The translations under genes were made by a program, and so were the position numbers. From Strobilurus pachycystidiatus (lineage: Eukaryota > Basidiomycota > Agaricomycetes > Agaricales > Physalacriaceae), in the NCBI GenBank assembly GCA_019915135.1, contig JAHLMK010000021.1, forward strand, positions 620,001 to 684,000: a stretch of 64,000 bases of DNA, in the 5' to 3' direction. This document shows, in pieces, positions 14,091-23,320 of the stretch; position 1 is the first letter of the stretch, and each line of letters starts with the position of its first letter. The notes beneath the pieces were generated by a model. The model was not told the origin of the DNA, searched no databases, and saw only the letters and a program-made list of their open reading frames with translations.

Positions 14091-15361
14091 TTAGATGTCC
14101 ATGTCAAGGCCCAACGCCTCTGCCCTGACGCGCAGAAGCTCGTCAGCCAGGGTAGAGTCATCTGCCCTAACCCAGTTATTCTCTCCACCAAGCCACTGGA
14201 TGTTGCCGGAACTGTCCCGCTTAAGCATCGCGACCATGATACCTTGCATGTCAAGGACAAAAGCGAGCCCTAATATCTGGCCGTCAAAGTCTTCCAGATA
14301 ATCCATTAGCTGACGAATGGCATCCTTTTTTCTATAGAGCTTGTCTTCGATCAGCACCAGGACATCGTGCCCAAACAAGACCGCAAAATCGGGGCGCTTG
14401 AGCTTGCGCCGGCCACAAGCTTTGACTAGGCGCTTGAACATGTCAAGTCCGACATTACCTAGGGCGCTACGCTCGGCAGCTTTGGGGGTGAGAGGGGCGA
14501 ACGCATCCGATGTACTGTCCATCAAGATCTCGATGTCGCCTGTAGGCAGACCAGGATCATTGGAAGTCGTATTGTCTTCGATGACGCTTTCATCGACTGG
14601 TGATCCGTGTGAAGTCGTGTCCCTCGGATGCCCCGAAGGTTCACTTGAGTCCCGCAAATCGGGACGGGGACTGCTCGCATGGTCTGGTTCCCCCAGATCA
14701 GTGGGGTATTCCGCCAGGTTGATGCCAAACTTGAACAAGTTCAAGTTCCCCTCATCGTCGAAGAGGCGACCGTCGGAGAGACCACTCCTGTCCATGGCAG
14801 AATCAAAAGTGTTGTCTACGTCTTGAAGAGACGAGTCAAATTCAACAACAGTTGACCATTCTTGTTGAATTTGGACCAGACACTCAGATATCTCCTGGGC
14901 GTAGGTGGCTTGTGGAATGACGCTAAAGCCCTCATGAACGCAGAAGAAACAGTTGAGGACGCCGTTCACAGCCCCGTCTACAATGCTTTCGAAGGGAGCT
15001 GCTTCAGGATTATCAGTGTCGGTTGGTTCATTCTCAGAATGTGGGGTGTTGATGGCTTCCATGATATGCGGAGGTAGGACGTGGACTGGTGGGAGCTGGA
15101 ACACAATCAGTTTCTGATCGAGGCTCGGATATTGGAGGCGCGTGCCATTCGAAGCCCATTCAGCTCTTCAAGTAATGCATCAATGGACGCGCCATAGTCG
15201 TGGCATTCATCGAGCGTGATGTGTAGGCGGGTCATCTTGATAGAGAAGATCAGTGCTGTGTCGATACGTTTGAACACAAGACGCACCCGATTCATTGTTC
15301 GTAACTTCGTGGCGACATCCTGAACTTGCCTGGTGAGGTCATCCGAGATGTTGAGTAGCAT
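14091..15361 (-). CDS. PD-(D/E)XK nuclease-like protein, apparent frameshift near its middle
   Basis: The main ORF runs from about 15062 (first ATG, MEAINTPHSE) to 14091. Its first half is acidic and Ser/Pro-rich. The C-terminal domain reads RPDFAVL..., then VLIEDKLY, then IRQLMDYL. This fits the D...ExK core of PD-(D/E)XK nucleases followed by a RecB-type QxxxY motif. Upstream, a second open frame starting at ATG 15361 (MLLNISDD) runs into the first with a frame change near 15110 and no possible donor site. Either the gene carries a frameshift or these are two genes. It begins about 100 bp outside the left inverted repeat of the 15.5-22.6 kb element, so host or element ownership is open. Nuclease activity is inferred from motifs only. 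Confidence 0.5.
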
Positions 15362-15460
15362 GATGAGTTTGGATTGGATAAGGAGAAAGGAGAGTGGCAC
15401 CGTGCACGACGTTTTGATAGGCTCGTGACACCATCCGATTTTGTCAGCAACGGCAGGCGA

Positions 15461-15678
15461 GTAACTTCCAAAACCGGCTGGGCTCCCATGGCACGATTTA
15501 GGCCTGGCCCGCCAAATGAGACGTCCTGACTTAAACAAAATTTCGATTTTTTTTGAAAAAAAGTGCAAATTCACCTATAAGAATCTGAGTCTACGAGTCC
15601 TGAATCGTCGAGAACTGGATTTAGTTCGAGGGGAATTTTTTGAGTCGGCGTCGAGGGCGGTGTCGCGTCGGTGGGCGC
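15461..15678. repeat. Left terminal inverted repeat, 218 bp
   Basis: The reverse complement of this stretch aligns end to end with 22347-22564. The best block is CGTCTCATTTGGCGGGCCAG followed directly by GCCTAAATC. A/T-rich runs near the centre and a GCGCCCACCGACGC block at the inner edge are also shared. The inner edge lies 28 bp beyond the stop codon of the DUF6589 gene. Confidence 0.85.
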
Positions 15679-15705
15679 ATTTCCCAAAAAGGTAAGTCAG
15701 AAGCA

Positions 15706-18700
15706 CTACCATTCATCTTCGTCGTAATCGTCATCTACATCGTCCGTATCGTAGTCTAGATCAAAACCAGGTATAGTATCCATGTCTAACTCAACGTCCG
15801 CCTCATCTGCATAGCCTAATGTAGGAGAATCAACTGTAAATAGGTTATCATCACGTTCAAATGCCATATCCTCCTCTGCCTGCGCTCCGACATCATCGTC
15901 GTCCTTAAGTCCAATGTCATGCATACCCACATCCGTAAGATTACCGGTGGATTGTTCACCGGACCCCGAGTCGCTCATAGAGACATCAGCCGAGGTGCTG
16001 GAGAGGTGAAATGAGGGCAGGGTCTTGTTCTCGTACTGCTCCAACAGGTCGACGACTGGTAATAAATCGAGGCGACCGCGAAGACGATTGAATTGTGCGT
16101 TGAACTCTTTGATCGGGTTCGACGTTGATTCCGGTGACTGAGCGGCTGCGAGATAACCTTCCGAGATGACATCTGGAGCCTCCTTCTCATCATCGTCAAG
16201 AACACGGGCTTCCGTGAGCCTATAGACGTCGTGTTCATCGAGCTTCTCCATGAGGACAGTGATATCTTTGCTGATTGAAGGTGTGGCATGCTTGGTACCT
16301 TGACTGGAACCAAGATCGTCGTGCATGCCCCTGGCTAGATTCCGAAGTACATCGATGCACGGGGTCACCATCTCGAGCCACTCCCATGAGTGGGCGTTGC
16401 CATCTGCCTTGTAGACCCGCTAGTACATAATCAGAACAATGACGCTCGGTAATACTTTCAATACTTACCTTGACCCAGAAGTTAATGTGTTCCTGTACTA
16501 GATCTATCTCGACAAAAGAGAATGGCTTGCCTGATGGACAGAGCAGCCAGTTCTGAAGAACAACCTTCCTGTCATGCATGTTAGATGCAAATTGACCATA
16601 CAGAAAGGAGAACTCACTTGATTTGCGGTGGCCAGACATTCTCCAGGTTGTGAATGAAGTGAAGCATCTCGTGGGCATACTTTGTTCGCCCGCTTCCTCG
16701 ATATGCATGTGCCCACAACTTGAGAACAATCACAACACGCCCGCTGTCGCCGCACTTGATAGCATCGGAGAATTCCCGAGTCAGAAGAGCGTCGCGCATA
16801 AAGAGGATGGCGTTCTCGAAGACCATATCACCTGCCTTCGCGTGAGGTTCCGGAGGGTCGTCCTTATTCTTCTTCTTCTTCTTTGAGCTGCCAACAGAAT
16901 CATCCTGCTTTCTACCCTCCTCTGCCCTGCGTTCGCGAAGCTCCGCCACAAGCTCGGTATCGGTATACTTGTCAAGGATCTGCTCCGCGTGTCCCTTGAG
17001 AACCGCAAAGTCCGTGACCTCAGCCAGATATTCCTCCAGCGATGACTTGCCCGATACGAGGAGTAAGCAGTGTAGAACACGTGCATAAAGGGACACCATG
17101 ACAAGGTCTCGAGAGGTGCGGAAGGTTGGTAGCGATGTGAGGACAATAGGAAGGCGGTCGAGACACTGGTTGTGAAAAGCGAGGCTTCCAGGACTCCGAG
17201 TGCCAGCGTTTGGTTTGCCGAAGTGTGTAGTCAATAGTCCGTGAGTATCCGCCATCTTAGCATGGAAGAGCCCAGGAACCAAGACAAATCTTTTCCATGC
17301 TTCAACGCCAGCCTCATGACCAAGGCGAGCGATGAGAATGGCGCGTTGACGTGCGATGGACAGCTGGTCACCACCAAGAAGCTGAATAAACTTTACTGCC
17401 GTCTTCCGGTCCATGTGAAGCTCCTTTTGAAAGACGTCGACCAGTTCGATATTTCCAGCCGTTGTAGCTTCATCGATCTCGGCAGGCGGCAAGGGGGAAA
17501 CCTCCGTTTGGTGGACTGCTATAACATCATCACTCATGGGCTGCGAAGCGTTTAGCTCAGCTTTCCACTTCTGGAATCCTTCACCGCCGTTGTAGATGAT
17601 GATTCGGAGGATGGTATAGACGAGGGCACGATGATGAAGATCGGATTCTTCGGTAGTGAGATCAAGGTCGTCCAACGACAACTCAGCGGCGTTCTTCATG
17701 CTTTCATCCAGACGATCGGCACGTAAATCATCAAGTATAGCATTCCACAGTGCAAATATAGTAGCACATGTACCGTTTTCCTGAGCATCTACAATGGAAG
17801 ATTAGAGAGTGAGATCTACTCAAAACAAGACAGAAAACATACTCTTCCGACCGAGAATTTGTTCGGCAACACGAATCATCATGTTAATGTTGTCGTACAC
17901 CATGATGAACAGCATCGTTCCCGCTAAAGCGCGCGCTTCTCGACGACTCGACTCCGATAGTTTGAACAAGGTGCCATGCGTCCTCATTCTCTTCCGTGCT
18001 CGCTTGCTGTACGTCCTATCTTCAACGTACGTCAAGATCCCAGAAGAGGCGGCCGATTCTCCAGCCATGGGGGTGGCGAGGCTCTCTGCGGGTGCGGCAC
18101 CTTTGTCGGACTGCTCTGCATCAACAGTCGCCGGTACTGTTGGCGTTGTGGGCCCTAGCGGCTGTCTCTCATCATCTTCGTCCTCGACAATCTCCACCGT
18201 GACAGGTCTCCGTCCTGTTGTTGCCGAGGCAGCTGTAGCTCGATTCGCTTCGGTTGTTGGAGTCGAAGTAGCACGCGAGGCTGATACGGGATTATTGGTG
18301 GAAGTCGCGGTAGTGTTGGCATCCTCGGCTTCATCAGCATCACGTCGAGAATGGCTAATGATGCTGGAGTAGCTCATCGTGATGCCGAGCGAAGACAGTA
18401 TCCCGAAATGTTGCCGTTGCGCTCCGGTTGCCATCAGATATGTACCGTGAATGGCTTGCACTAGGCTGTTTCTCGAGCTTGCAGCCTTGAAGAGGATAAG
18501 CGCAGCATTGCCAACTAGCTACAAGAAAGGTCAGAAATGTACGGTTTCACAGATGTAACATACCAAGCCCTTCCGCTTGATCCACTCGTCTGAGACTTGA
18601 CGCACTCGGCGTGGTCCCGAAGACGAAGCCTCTAAGATGGAGAACAGAGCGGGTGCAATCTTCTTCAATTGAGCAGAGAGCCCGCTCAGACTGTAACTTT

Positions 18701-19415
18701 CAAAAAGCTCCCGATTTATCTCCGTGTCTTTCAGAGACAGAACTCCTGACTGCGTAATAGTTTTGGTCTCGCCGTAAACCTCGTCGCAGACGACAGCAAG
18801 AGCCCATTCCTTGAGAAAGGCATGCACTCGTTTCGAGGACCGTAGCCAGTGGTCAAGGATTTGGCGAACGGTTGCTTGGTTCTGGAAGAAACGCTGGTAG
18901 GTCCAATCGAGACGAAGTTTGCTGGATGGATCGAAGGCGTAGTCGAGAAACTCAGCCATGGAACAGTTGTTGGCATCAAGTGTGTCGAGAAGCGAGTCAA
19001 AGACAGCATGTTTGTCGGTCTGGAATAAAACTCGACGCTGGCCACGGCTCTCTTGTCGCTTGACTTCCGAGCGGGCAGTAAGCACTGCACGCTCTGTATT
19101 GGGACTATACATGACAGTGTCATCAGAGGGAATGAGCGGGTTCTGCGCCTTAGATCCTCGCGATGGCGTCTCAGGCTCTGGGGATGGAGAGAGCCCATGG
19201 ATGCCTCGGATGATTCTTTCCAATGGCACACCATCAGAGGAAGGTAGGGGTAGACGAGTGGAGAGGGGTGATGAATGCTCTTCAGCAGGCCGCTCCAGAT
19301 CTGGCGGACAGTGATCTGAGAAGTTGAGTAGATCATCGTTTGGGTCTATTTCTCCTCTGAGGTCGCTGGTTGGACTGCGAGCAGGAGGACTCGATGGTGG
19401 TAGACTCCGAGTCAT
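15706..19415 (-). CDS. DUF6589-family protein, candidate transposase
   Basis: Five exons, 19415-18564, 18518-17843, 17788-16618, 16568-16469 and 16419-15706, give an unbroken 1170-aa protein with introns of 45-54 nt. Residues 1-130 are Pro/Ser-rich and disordered. Family landmarks follow: VYDNINMM near 492, QENGTCATIFALWNAIL at the exon 2/3 junction, GGDQLSIARQRAI near 650, PGLFHAKMADTHG near 685, HFGKPN near 705, and SGKPFSFVEIDLVQEHINFW near 910. The C-terminus is very acidic (runs of Asp). The spaced Asp and His residues in these blocks recall an RNase H-fold DDE enzyme, which together with the flanking inverted repeats suggests a transposase. That role is my inference; the domain itself is annotated only as unknown function. 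Confidence 0.85.
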
Positions 19416-19472
19416 CGTAGTGCGAGTGGAGTTTCAGAATTTGCTTCCGTTCCCGTTCTGTCTCTCGCTCCC
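19416..19472. promoter_or_regulatory. 57-bp divergent promoter spacer
   Basis: The two start codons of the element's genes point away from each other and are separated by only 57 bases. The spacer is pyrimidine-rich towards the helicase gene. Any promoter elements must lie here or inside the coding regions. A single bidirectional control region for both genes is the simple inference. Confidence 0.5.
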
Positions 19473-22303
19473 ATGCCGCCGCAAGCTCCTAAAACAAAGT
19501 CTGCCCAGGCGGCAGTCCCGCGCGGGACGGCCCACAAACGACGACCCGTCTCAAGCAAGCCAAAACCCTTTGCACGGCTCACAGACACCGAGCGAAAGAA
19601 GCGCCTTGCGGAACTCGAGAAACTGCCCGATCTCATTCGAGAAAAGTTCAAGACGTGGAAGGATGGCGCCCGTCCTCACCAAATCGAGGGGATGCGATGT
19701 CAAGTCCTGCAAAAGGATATGGTTATGCAGGCCGCGACCGGAGCAGGCAAAACTGGCATCGCTGCAGGCCCTCATCTGCTTGATTCGAACAAGGGCAAAG
19801 TTACACTGATGGTGTCTCCGCTGCTGTCACTGCACGATGAACATGTTAGTGCATCAAACTTTCATACAAATTACAGAACTGACCTGCTTAAAGGTTCGCA
19901 CATTCCAGGAGGAGTTTGGGTTGACTGCTACTGCCGTAAATAGCACGCAGGGCGGCTGTACACCAAAGCTGATGAACGTAAGTTTACAACAGTGATAGAA
20001 CCATTCAATGAACCAACTTACGCGTTTGTCCAGGACATTGTCTTTGGGAAGTACCAAATGGTACTCTTATCGCCGGAAATGCTTCTCAGTCGCCGCTTCA
20101 TTGATGGTGTGTTACGGAAACCAGAGTTCAGCTCAAAGATCCTATCCGTGTTTATTGATGAAGCTCATTGCATTTCGCACTGGGGCGCAAACTTCCGCAA
20201 GAAATATGCGAGTATTGGAATTCTCCGCGGCTTCTTACCCAAATCGACTCCCTTCATCGCGGTCTCCGCTACTTTGACACGCCGTGTTCGCCAGGACGTT
20301 GTAAAGACCCTCCAGATGGACCCGAAATCCTATGTCTTCCTCAACGTGGGGAACGATCGTTCTAATGTATCTCAGATCGTACGCTCCATGCAACATGCGA
20401 TGAACACTTACCGGGACATCGACTTCACCGTGCCCAGGACCATCAAGTCAACAAAAGAAATCCCGAAGACATTCATCTATTCCGATGACGTCCAAGATGG
20501 TGTTCGTATGACCGATTATCTGAACGCTCGAGTACCCGAAGCGTTTCGTCACCTTGGGGTAGTGCGGCCCTACAACGCAATCATGTCGCAGGAGTATCGC
20601 GATGCCGCCATGAAGCTATTCAAGGCGGGCATCATACGTATCTTGGTGTGTACAGATGCTGCCGGTATGGTAAGTGAACTGCACAAGATACGTGGATCCA
20701 AAATCTTACCAGGACGTCTAGGGCTGTAATATTCCGGATGTTGATGTCGTTGTCCAATGGAAAGCACCGAGTACACTGTCCAGCTGGGTCCAGCGCGCTG
20801 GTCGAGCTGCCAGAGGCCCTGGAAGGAAGGGTATTGCCATCATGCTCGTCGAGAAGTCTGCCTTCACATCTGATCCCGATGCTACGGCTATCAACGAGCC
20901 CGCGGAGAACAGCCATGTTCCTTCCAGGGGCAATGGCCGCGGTACTCGAGGAAGAGGTAGAGGAGGTCGCGGCGGTCGCGGCGGTCGTGGTCGTGGTGTT
21001 GCGAAGAGTTTAGGCCAGGGCTACGCGACCTCACGCGGACAACAGCGGGGCGATCACACTTGCAACCATGACGAGCCCGTTCCACAACCAGCGGATCCAG
21101 AAGTCGTTGCTGAGGATGCCCACGGCGAGGGTATATATCAGTACATTCAAGCACGGACGTGTCGGCGGGCTATGCTCAAGCAGATCTTCAACAATCCCAC
21201 TGATGAAGGTCAGATACTAGATCTTCTAGCTCAGAAAGATATCGTGCTCACCTTTGGAAACAGAACTTCTCACTGTCGAGTGTTGCGATATCTGCTCCCC
21301 GGCATTGTTCGTCCACGCCCGCCCTTCACCGCCAGTTCCGCAAACTCGCGCGAAGTCTATTCAGAAAGTCGACCCAGTACCCAGTGTCCGAGCGTCGCTA
21401 CACGCATGGCGCAAAAAAATGAAGACTGAAAAGTATGCAAATGCTCGATGGACGTCCAATGTTTTGTTATCGAATGAGCTTTGCGACTTGCTCTCTTCGA
21501 TTGGACCAGTGACGCTAAAGATGGAGTTAGCAAGAATTTTGAAGCCACTTTGGGTGAAGTGGGATGTGCTGGGCAATGAGCTTTACACTCACATGTTATC
21601 CCTCGACATTCCAGCACTACCAACGCCGTCACAGCGTAGGAGCGCTCGAACCAATACCACCGAACCACCTGCAGCCTCGACCGCCGCTGCGACCCCCACC
21701 CTCTTGACACCTTCAACTTCCGCCAGTAGCGAGCGCGGCGCTGTACCTGCTTTTCGGCCAGCCACGCGTTCTGCCGTCCTGCACTCAGATCCACCACACA
21801 ATCCCATTTTCCTTGCGCCGGCCGAGTCGAGAACCAAACGCAACGCCGCCGCCTTAGGGTCCTTCGAGGTTTCCACTCCCCAGAGATTACGGATAGACTC
21901 CAATTCTGAAAGCTCGGGCTCGCGTCAGGCAACAACGACGACAAGCGCGAATCCTTACCCGGCCTATGCCCCACAATTTCCGCCACCTACACCAACATAT
22001 ATCGGCTACCAGCAGCCCATCCCCTACATGTACCCGCATCAGCACCCACACTATGTGTCGCATTACCCATACTATCATCAGTACTCACCTCAGGCCATGC
22101 CATACCCGTACTACACACCACCAGCACCTCCTGCTCCAGTTCATACCAATCCTGCAAATCAGTCCAGGCTGCCCAGTCATACAGTCCAGTCCAATCAGAT
22201 GCAGGGTACCGTCTATCTTGGGGCGCTAGCAGAGGCACGAGCGCCAACAAGGAGTAGGAGAGACGATGAGGGACGCGAGAGAAGACGCGACTCGTCCGAG
22301 TAA
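19473..22303 (+). CDS. RecQ-like DEAD/DEAH helicase with RGG box
   Basis: Five exons, 19473-19844, 19894-19977, 20034-20669, 20722-21208 and 21264-22303, give 872 aa. Helicase motifs are all present: Walker A ATGAGKT (residues 88-94), VSPLLSLHDE (motif Ia), IDEAHCISHWG (194-203), VSATL (motif III), and QRAGRAARG (motif VI, about 388-396). After the core comes an Arg/Gly RGG box (about 436-460). Then a Cys pair block (VECCDICSP), and a tail very rich in Tyr, Pro and His. The layout is that of RecQ-family 3'-5' helicases without an obvious HRDC domain. Within the element it may act on transposition intermediates or replication; this is inference. Such genes are multicopy in many agaric genomes. 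Confidence 0.9.
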
Positions 22304-22346
22304 GTACTACTAAGCGCCCATCAAAAATCTCGGCGGTTGCCGAAGC

Positions 22347-22564
22347 GCGCCCACCGACGCAACACCGCCCTCGACCCCGACTCAAAAAATACCCCCTTAG
22401 CTGATTCCAGTTCTCGACGATTCAGCAGTAGTAGATTCATTTTCTTATAGGTGATTTTGCACTTTTTCTGAAAAAAATCAAAATTTTTGTTGAAGTCCCT
22501 ACGTCTCATTTGGCGGGCCAGGCCTAAATCCTGCCATGGGGGCCCAGTCGGTTCAGGATGTTAC
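22347..22564. repeat. Right terminal inverted repeat, 218 bp
   Basis: Inverted partner of 15461-15678 and of the same length. It starts 44 bp after the helicase stop codon. Its outer 22 bases form one arm of a further palindrome with 22611-22632. Confidence 0.85.
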
Positions 22565-22632
22565 CACCGCCCCCAACCAAACAAACCAAACAATCGGTAT
22601 TCGGTCCGGTCGGTAACATCCTGAGCCGACTG
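22543..22632. repeat. Palindrome at the outer edge of the element
   Basis: CCAGTCGGTTCAGGATGTTACC is followed about 46 bases later by its inverse with one mismatch (GGTAACATCCTGAGCCGACTGG). The left arm belongs to the terminal repeat; the right arm lies just outside it. The sequence TCGGTATTCGGTCCG in the loop recurs as a direct repeat about 80 bp downstream. Confidence 0.75.
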
Positions 22633-22789
22633 GTATTACGAGTCTAACGTTTTGACAATTGTATAGAACAATGGGTCGGTATTCGGTCCGACTGACCACG
22701 CGACTTTCACGTGCTGCCGTGACGATCATGTTGGACTCTTATTAGTGACATCGTCACTCAAAGCTCCTATAAACTATCCATCAACAGCC

Positions 22790-23320
22790 ATGCCTACCCG
22801 CAAGTTGACTGTCACTCCCTATGTCTTTGGAGCGGTACTCAGCTCCGACCAACTACGCGCATTGGCCGAACAGAAGTGTGGCGCCAAAATGATTGAGCGC
22901 TATTCCGGATTCCATGCGACGGCGCTGAATAATCTTTACCACGAGCAAGGCATTCAGGAGTGCTTTCTAAAGTACAAGAAGGCGGACTGGGACGAAGCTC
23001 GATATCTCTGGGTTCAGGGACTTGTACCGTCATTTGATCGCACGAAGCCAAAATTCGACGTTCCTTGTATGGACTACAAATATCCAGAGATGAAGTCGAT
23101 AGGATATGTCGGGCTGGATTGCTTGTCGTGGCCGCGCCCTATATCTCGTACGTCTGCTATTCACTCACTGGGTCCCGGCTGACTTTTTTTGTCAGCGCCC
23201 GACTGGTTCACTCCTAGGCTGGAGAGATACACCAAGTGGCTTATAGAAGAGCGAAAGAAGGAGTTGAAAGCGCAGGCTCAGGCGAAAAGCGCGAGTCCTC
23301 CTGTTCCGGTTGCTTCATGA
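22790..23320 (+). CDS. Small orphan protein, intact paralogue of the LTR-disrupted gene
   Basis: Two exons, 22790-23147 and 23196-23320, encode 160 aa; the intron is 48 nt. The protein is compact, Lys/Tyr-rich, with no signal peptide or transmembrane stretch. It ends in a charged helix (IEERKKELKAQAQAKS). I recognise no family. A second copy of exon 2 plus 3' flank is at 3714-4080, broken by a retroelement. The start ATG is the first in the frame and begins a well-formed protein. Confidence 0.7.

Follow-up and report, generated by a model that had tools for sequence, protein, structure and literature searches.

A DUF6589 gene and a RecQ-like helicase gene in a probable AcademH-type DNA transposon of Strobilurus pachycystidiatus

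The element in the window and its two genes

We analyzed a stretch of 64,000 nucleotides (nt), hereafter the window, from contig JAHLMK010000021.1 of Strobilurus pachycystidiatus (assembly GCA_019915135.1, positions 620,001 to 684,000, forward strand), in which two divergent genes lie within an element bounded by terminal inverted repeats (TIRs). The gene on the minus strand (15706-19415; exons 18564-19415, 17843-18518, 16618-17788, 16469-16568, and 15706-16419) codes for a DUF6589 protein of 1170 amino acids (aa), the proposed DDE transposase, and the gene on the plus strand (19473-22303; exons 19473-19844, 19894-19977, 20034-20669, 20722-21208, and 21264-22303) codes for a RecQ-like helicase of superfamily 2 (SF2) with 872 aa. 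Both models were spliced by hand, without transcripts, and reproduced the protein lengths given in a first-pass annotation of this DNA. The last helicase intron (21209-21263) is one among 23 options that keep the frame, and was picked because it retains the Cys-rich RecQ-type motif and yields the 872 aa of that annotation. The start codons, at 19415 on the minus strand and 19473 on the plus strand, are separated by 57 base pairs (bp; 19416-19472), presumably a shared promoter region. Pfam placed DUF6589, which it lists as a family of unknown function, at residues 542-977 of the 1170-aa protein (E 1.1e-133). The helicase matched DEAD (E 4.9e-20) and Helicase_C (E 1.1e-16), RecQ_Zn_bind stayed below threshold (E 0.0018; 19.4 bits against a cut-off of 25), and the best sequence relatives in the PDB were WRN and RecQ (E 4.7e-27 to 1.5e-26).

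The transposon spans 15418-22646 (7229 bp), as delimited by its terminal repeats and an exact 9-bp target-site duplication, ACGTTTTGA, at 15409-15417 and 22647-22655. A pattern search identified 15-bp TIRs, TAGGCTCGTGACACC at 15418-15432 and, read on the minus strand, TAGACTCGTAATACC at 22632-22646, which are identical at 12 of 15 positions and are common to short non-autonomous copies. The 218-bp inverted repeats previously described around the two genes were recovered as two arms of 223 nt (15461-15683 on the plus strand and 22342-22564 on the minus strand), 84% complementary and separated by 6658 nt, the left one also being present elsewhere in the genome. They enclose both genes, but they do not bracket the whole unit: comparison with intact short elements placed the true ends 43 bp beyond the left arm and 82 bp beyond the right arm. 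In addition, a 22-nt inverted repeat (22544-22565 and 22612-22633; 95% complementary) lies inside the right terminus, spanning 22544-22633, and perhaps represents a transposase binding arrangement. No like pair was listed for the left end, and inspection by eye showed a similar repeat at the corresponding end of a short element (L012).

Paired genes, complete units, and a natural empty site

The genome search with DUF6589 gave 71 matches, merged by hand into 31 loci, and the search with a 212-aa core of the window helicase gave 30 matches. A RecQ-like partner was present within 15 kilobases (kb) at 24 of the 31 DUF6589 loci, within 10 kb at 23, and within 5 kb at 21, compared with a random expectation of 0.24 pairs on average and 3 at most (2000 placings, centres less than 6.5 kb apart). 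All 8 pairs with a close helicase (>50% identity) were divergent and all 16 with a distant helicase (<40% identity) were convergent, and none of the 24 was in tandem. In Mycena olivaceomarginata, one DUF6589 protein (P0115) and one long helicase of this type (P0243) have consecutive locus numbers, on contigs of equal length. For the 13 of 24 pairs with both sequences, compared over DUF6589 fragments of 110-480 aa, the two proteins gave largely congruent trees, with a Mantel r of 0.93 over all pairs (p 5e-5), 0.98 for the 6 divergent pairs (p 0.002), and 0.96 for the 7 convergent pairs (p 0.0006).

Both sides were inspected for 20 of the 24 pairs, in limited stretches beyond which more distant ends would escape. 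In a first end test, which scored the first 20 end bases plus the 9-bp duplication, 10 of 19 pairs scored at least 15 and none of 342 controls scored above 14; the C13 pair showed a 10-bp duplication with weaker ends. Under a looser criterion (both ends starting with YAG, at least 6 of 8 bases agreeing, and an exact duplication of at least 8 bp), units were found at 15 of the 19 pairs, every duplication being 9 bp, and among 342 mismatched end pairings none had a duplication of at least 9 bp and two had one of 8 bp. An extra hit within the C17 unit had a negative length and was excluded from the count as spurious. The twentieth pair is a nested unit on contig C5, whose ends satisfied the looser criterion by eye. 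Altogether, 16 of the 20 inspected pairs were units with an exact 9-bp duplication, in the divergent and convergent lineages alike. In the convergent C17 unit (708211-713705), the repeats are identical over at least 182 bp, and the ends, TAGTCTCGTGATACC, resemble those of the window element.

The left subterminal repeat gave 30 matches in the genome, grouped into 15 places, 6 of which are intact short elements of 575-585 bp where the DUF6589 and RecQ-like searches listed no match. An exact 9-bp duplication was present at 11 of the 15 places: the window element, these six short elements, three more that were read by eye across two loci (C1:4080 kb, C1:1037 kb, and C6:911-919 kb), and the interrupted short element at C5:2812 kb. 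The duplication or an end was missing from the stretches searched at the other four (C22:593 kb, C20:762 kb, C7:603 kb, and C7:600 kb). The 15-bp end pattern occurred 22 times in the genome versus 0 for the reversed control, and a looser pattern 56 times versus 8. Among the eight close pairs of this looser pattern that belong to other subfamilies, the duplications were 9 bp in six and 8 bp in two.

The C5 unit (2812704-2819536; 6833 bp), with its DUF6589 and helicase both in the inserted stretch, interrupts a short element of the window family and is flanked on each side by a copy of GCCCAGTCG. This 9-mer occurs once, at the same point, in all six intact short elements, and the C5 short element minus the unit and one 9-mer measures 583 bp, as in three of the six sisters. 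Thus, one target sequence is seen occupied at C5 and empty in its sisters. For the insertion site of the window element itself, a search with the joined flanks found no further, unoccupied copy in this genome. The interval C5:2812217-2819641, once considered another copy of the window element, proved to be a short element of its family holding a different DUF6589 and RecQ-like unit.

These results agree with the earlier proposal that the DUF6589 and RecQ-like genes form one mobile unit, in view of the target duplications, terminal repeats, C5 empty site, pairing, and co-divergence. That proposal had treated repeats without the genes and genes without the repeat, together with the lack of an empty site, as evidence against it. 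The first two were found, the former being non-autonomous derivatives and the latter other subfamilies with other terminal repeats, and neither refutes it. Alternatively, the DUF6589 and RecQ genes might both belong to the host and be chance neighbours between unrelated repeats, as the solitary copies of either gene could suggest (7 of the 31 DUF6589 loci and 6 of the 30 RecQ-like matches). This is already contradicted by the 21 loci with a partner within 5 kb, where 0.24 were expected, and by the 16 units with exact duplications, the empty site, and the largely congruent trees, and its probability is negligible.

DUF6589 as a candidate transposase and its relation to AcademH

The predicted model of a Mycena DUF6589 homologue has an RNase H topology, and structure comparison placed DDE recombinases at the top of the list, the best rows being the transposases of hAT (Hermes), the P element, and RAG1/Transib. 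In these enzymes, a helical insertion precedes the last acidic residue of an RNase H core, a likeness shared with the DUF6589 model. They differ from DUF6589 in that its profile retrieved no transposase among PDB sequences (four weak, unrelated matches) and in the C/DxxH signature, which was present in at most 1.9% of aligned DUF6589 sequences at any column pair tested. A D-D-E triad is conserved in the DUF6589 alignment, and D493, D650, and E883 are the putative catalytic residues of the window protein. Very probably, DUF6589 serves as the transposase in a cut-and-paste transposon that carries a helicase, and the predicted fold and conserved residues suggest that it would act by DDE catalysis.

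AcademH is reportedly the helicase-carrying lineage of the Academ superfamily. According to the parts of the published descriptions available to us, target duplications are 9 or 10 bp in AcademH and 3 or 4 bp in AcademX, tied to helicase and nuclease (PMC10045372), a RecQ helicase occurs in Academ (PMC3627910), AcademH is low-copy in Basidiomycota (PMC10799480), and Marasmius oreades has putative non-autonomous Academ elements (PMC8290104). The family described here resembles these accounts of AcademH in encoding a RecQ/SF2 helicase (judged in the window from Pfam and PDB relatives), in the 9-bp duplications of the window element and of 16 of the 20 inspected pairs, in a probable DDE-type transposase (homologue fold, structure list, and D-D-E residues), and in its occurrence in Basidiomycota. 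It differs in the 8-bp duplications of the two short elements mentioned above, and it may differ in gene layout, its genes being separate and convergent or divergent. The features of a cut-and-paste TIR transposon are present, namely TIRs, duplications, and an empty target, the last belonging to the C5 unit rather than the window. We filed the element under AcademH and not in a new class because the RecQ helicase and the 9-10 bp duplications match. The helicase is a standing component, as the first-pass annotation supposed, but the class it had in mind is not new, since helicase-carrying Academ elements are in print, as far as the portions seen of those papers tell (PMC3627910; PMC10045372).

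Taken together, we consider it highly likely that the window holds a complete, probably autonomous AcademH-type cut-and-paste DNA transposon with DUF6589 as its DDE (RNase H-fold) transposase. DUF6589 may belong to one protein family with the Academ transposase, and the element may still be active. In the proposed mechanism, DUF6589 would bind the terminal and subterminal repeats, cut at the YAG ends, and join the element to a target opened by cuts staggered by 9 bp, giving the 9-bp duplication. The RecQ-like helicase, as a standing partner, would most likely act by unwinding DNA, whether at the element ends, at the target, or in gap repair, and gene-less short elements that share these ends would be mobilised in trans. 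With transposase and helicase diverging together, what a helicase contributes to cut-and-paste transposition becomes a directly testable question.

Several points weigh against the AcademH-type transposon as described. The assignment to AcademH was made from published descriptions, and the fold was predicted for a Mycena homologue rather than the window protein. Foldseek alone gave no match for the DUF6589 model at E 0.001 or better, and no DUF6589-helicase fusion was found (PF20231 in 0 of 22 long helicase matches, 7988 candidates scored). No RecQ-like match lies within 15 kb of the 7 solitary DUF6589 loci, the 6 solitary RecQ-like matches have no DUF6589 neighbour, and among the 8 short elements from other subfamilies 2 have duplications of 8 bp. 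Four pairs (C1:128-138 kb, C43, C48, and C59) were left out of the inspection of both sides, 4 of the 20 inspected gave no end pair under the looser criterion (C13, C20 372-378 kb, C1 3.35 Mb, and C10 0.6 Mb), and that criterion was fixed after the results of the first end test were known. Finally, the trees conflict at the C14 pair: its DUF6589 groups with those of C17, C13, C11, and C4 (support 0.92), while its helicase adjoins the divergent clade (0.84), so that a partner swap there is conceivable.

The fungal Kolobok lineage KolobokH is also a DNA transposon with a RecQ helicase, and Kolobok has 4-bp TTAA duplications and a C/DxxH motif between the second D and E, according to the part of the account seen (PMC9587614). 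The 9-bp, non-TTAA duplications here already contradict an assignment to KolobokH, and the rarity of C/DxxH in the DUF6589 alignment argues against it as well, so that we regard it as highly improbable. A further alternative is a superfamily of its own, carrying a helicase and making 9-bp duplications, whose DUF6589 DDE transposase is not homologous to that of Academ. It would be compatible with a comparison based on descriptions rather than sequences and with a family that has no assigned function in Pfam and no mention in the literature searched. Against it, the AcademH descriptions, as far as seen, agree with the element in the RecQ helicase, the 9-bp duplications, and the presence in Basidiomycota, and we judge it distinctly improbable. 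Also unlikely, in our view, is the broader proposal that DUF6589 is a large DDE family of mushroom-forming fungi with the RecQ-like helicase as an obligate, co-evolving subunit, in two lineages of opposite gene order that may form their own superfamily and not a branch of Academ. In the portions of the literature seen, we met no mention of DUF6589 as an AcademH-type transposase, of helicase co-divergence, or of two lineages with opposite gene order, although gene order is possibly treated in Kojima (2020). The link of DUF6589 to an AcademH-type element and the two gene layouts were thus not seen in print within that scope.

The AcademH-type reading gives a likely function to the Pfam family DUF6589, with 31 loci here and many homologues in mushroom-forming fungi. 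Multicopy subtelomeric RecQ-like helicases have been described in fungi, in the part of the report seen (PMC7473861). The window helicase resembles them as a multicopy RecQ-like gene and differs in lying within a TIR element together with a transposase. In mushrooms, such subtelomeric gene copies might represent stray helicases of transposons, and our results suggest that many mushroom "RecQ" genes belong to transposons, with consequences for gene counts and for claims of host helicase expansion. Two RecQ-like genes, at C6:1245333-1245866 (L040) and C31:18013-18546 (L041), are 83% identical to the window helicase and have no DUF6589 neighbour; the latter is 18 kb from the contig end.

Further short elements and the window flanks

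More non-autonomous families (L069-L076) have ends TAGTCTCGTTATACC (112-596 bp) and TAGTCTCGTGATACC (407-408 bp), and the TAGTCTCGTGATACC-ended short elements match the ends of the C17 unit (89% over 66 bp). At C6:911084-919647 (L026/L033), a short element of the window family contains an insert of about 8 kb. We abandoned the view that this locus is an element carrying cargo: with its CAC...GTG ends and TA on either side, the insert looks nested and is possibly an EnSpm/Plavaka-type element.

When the window flanks were joined (14801-15417 and 22656-22955), a single open frame ran across the junction on the minus strand, suggesting that the insertion may interrupt or disturb a host gene. Sequences related to the start of the right-flank gene (22781-22955) lie at C21:576 kb (two), C21:611 kb, and C14:371 kb, with 81-88% identity over 165-175 nt.
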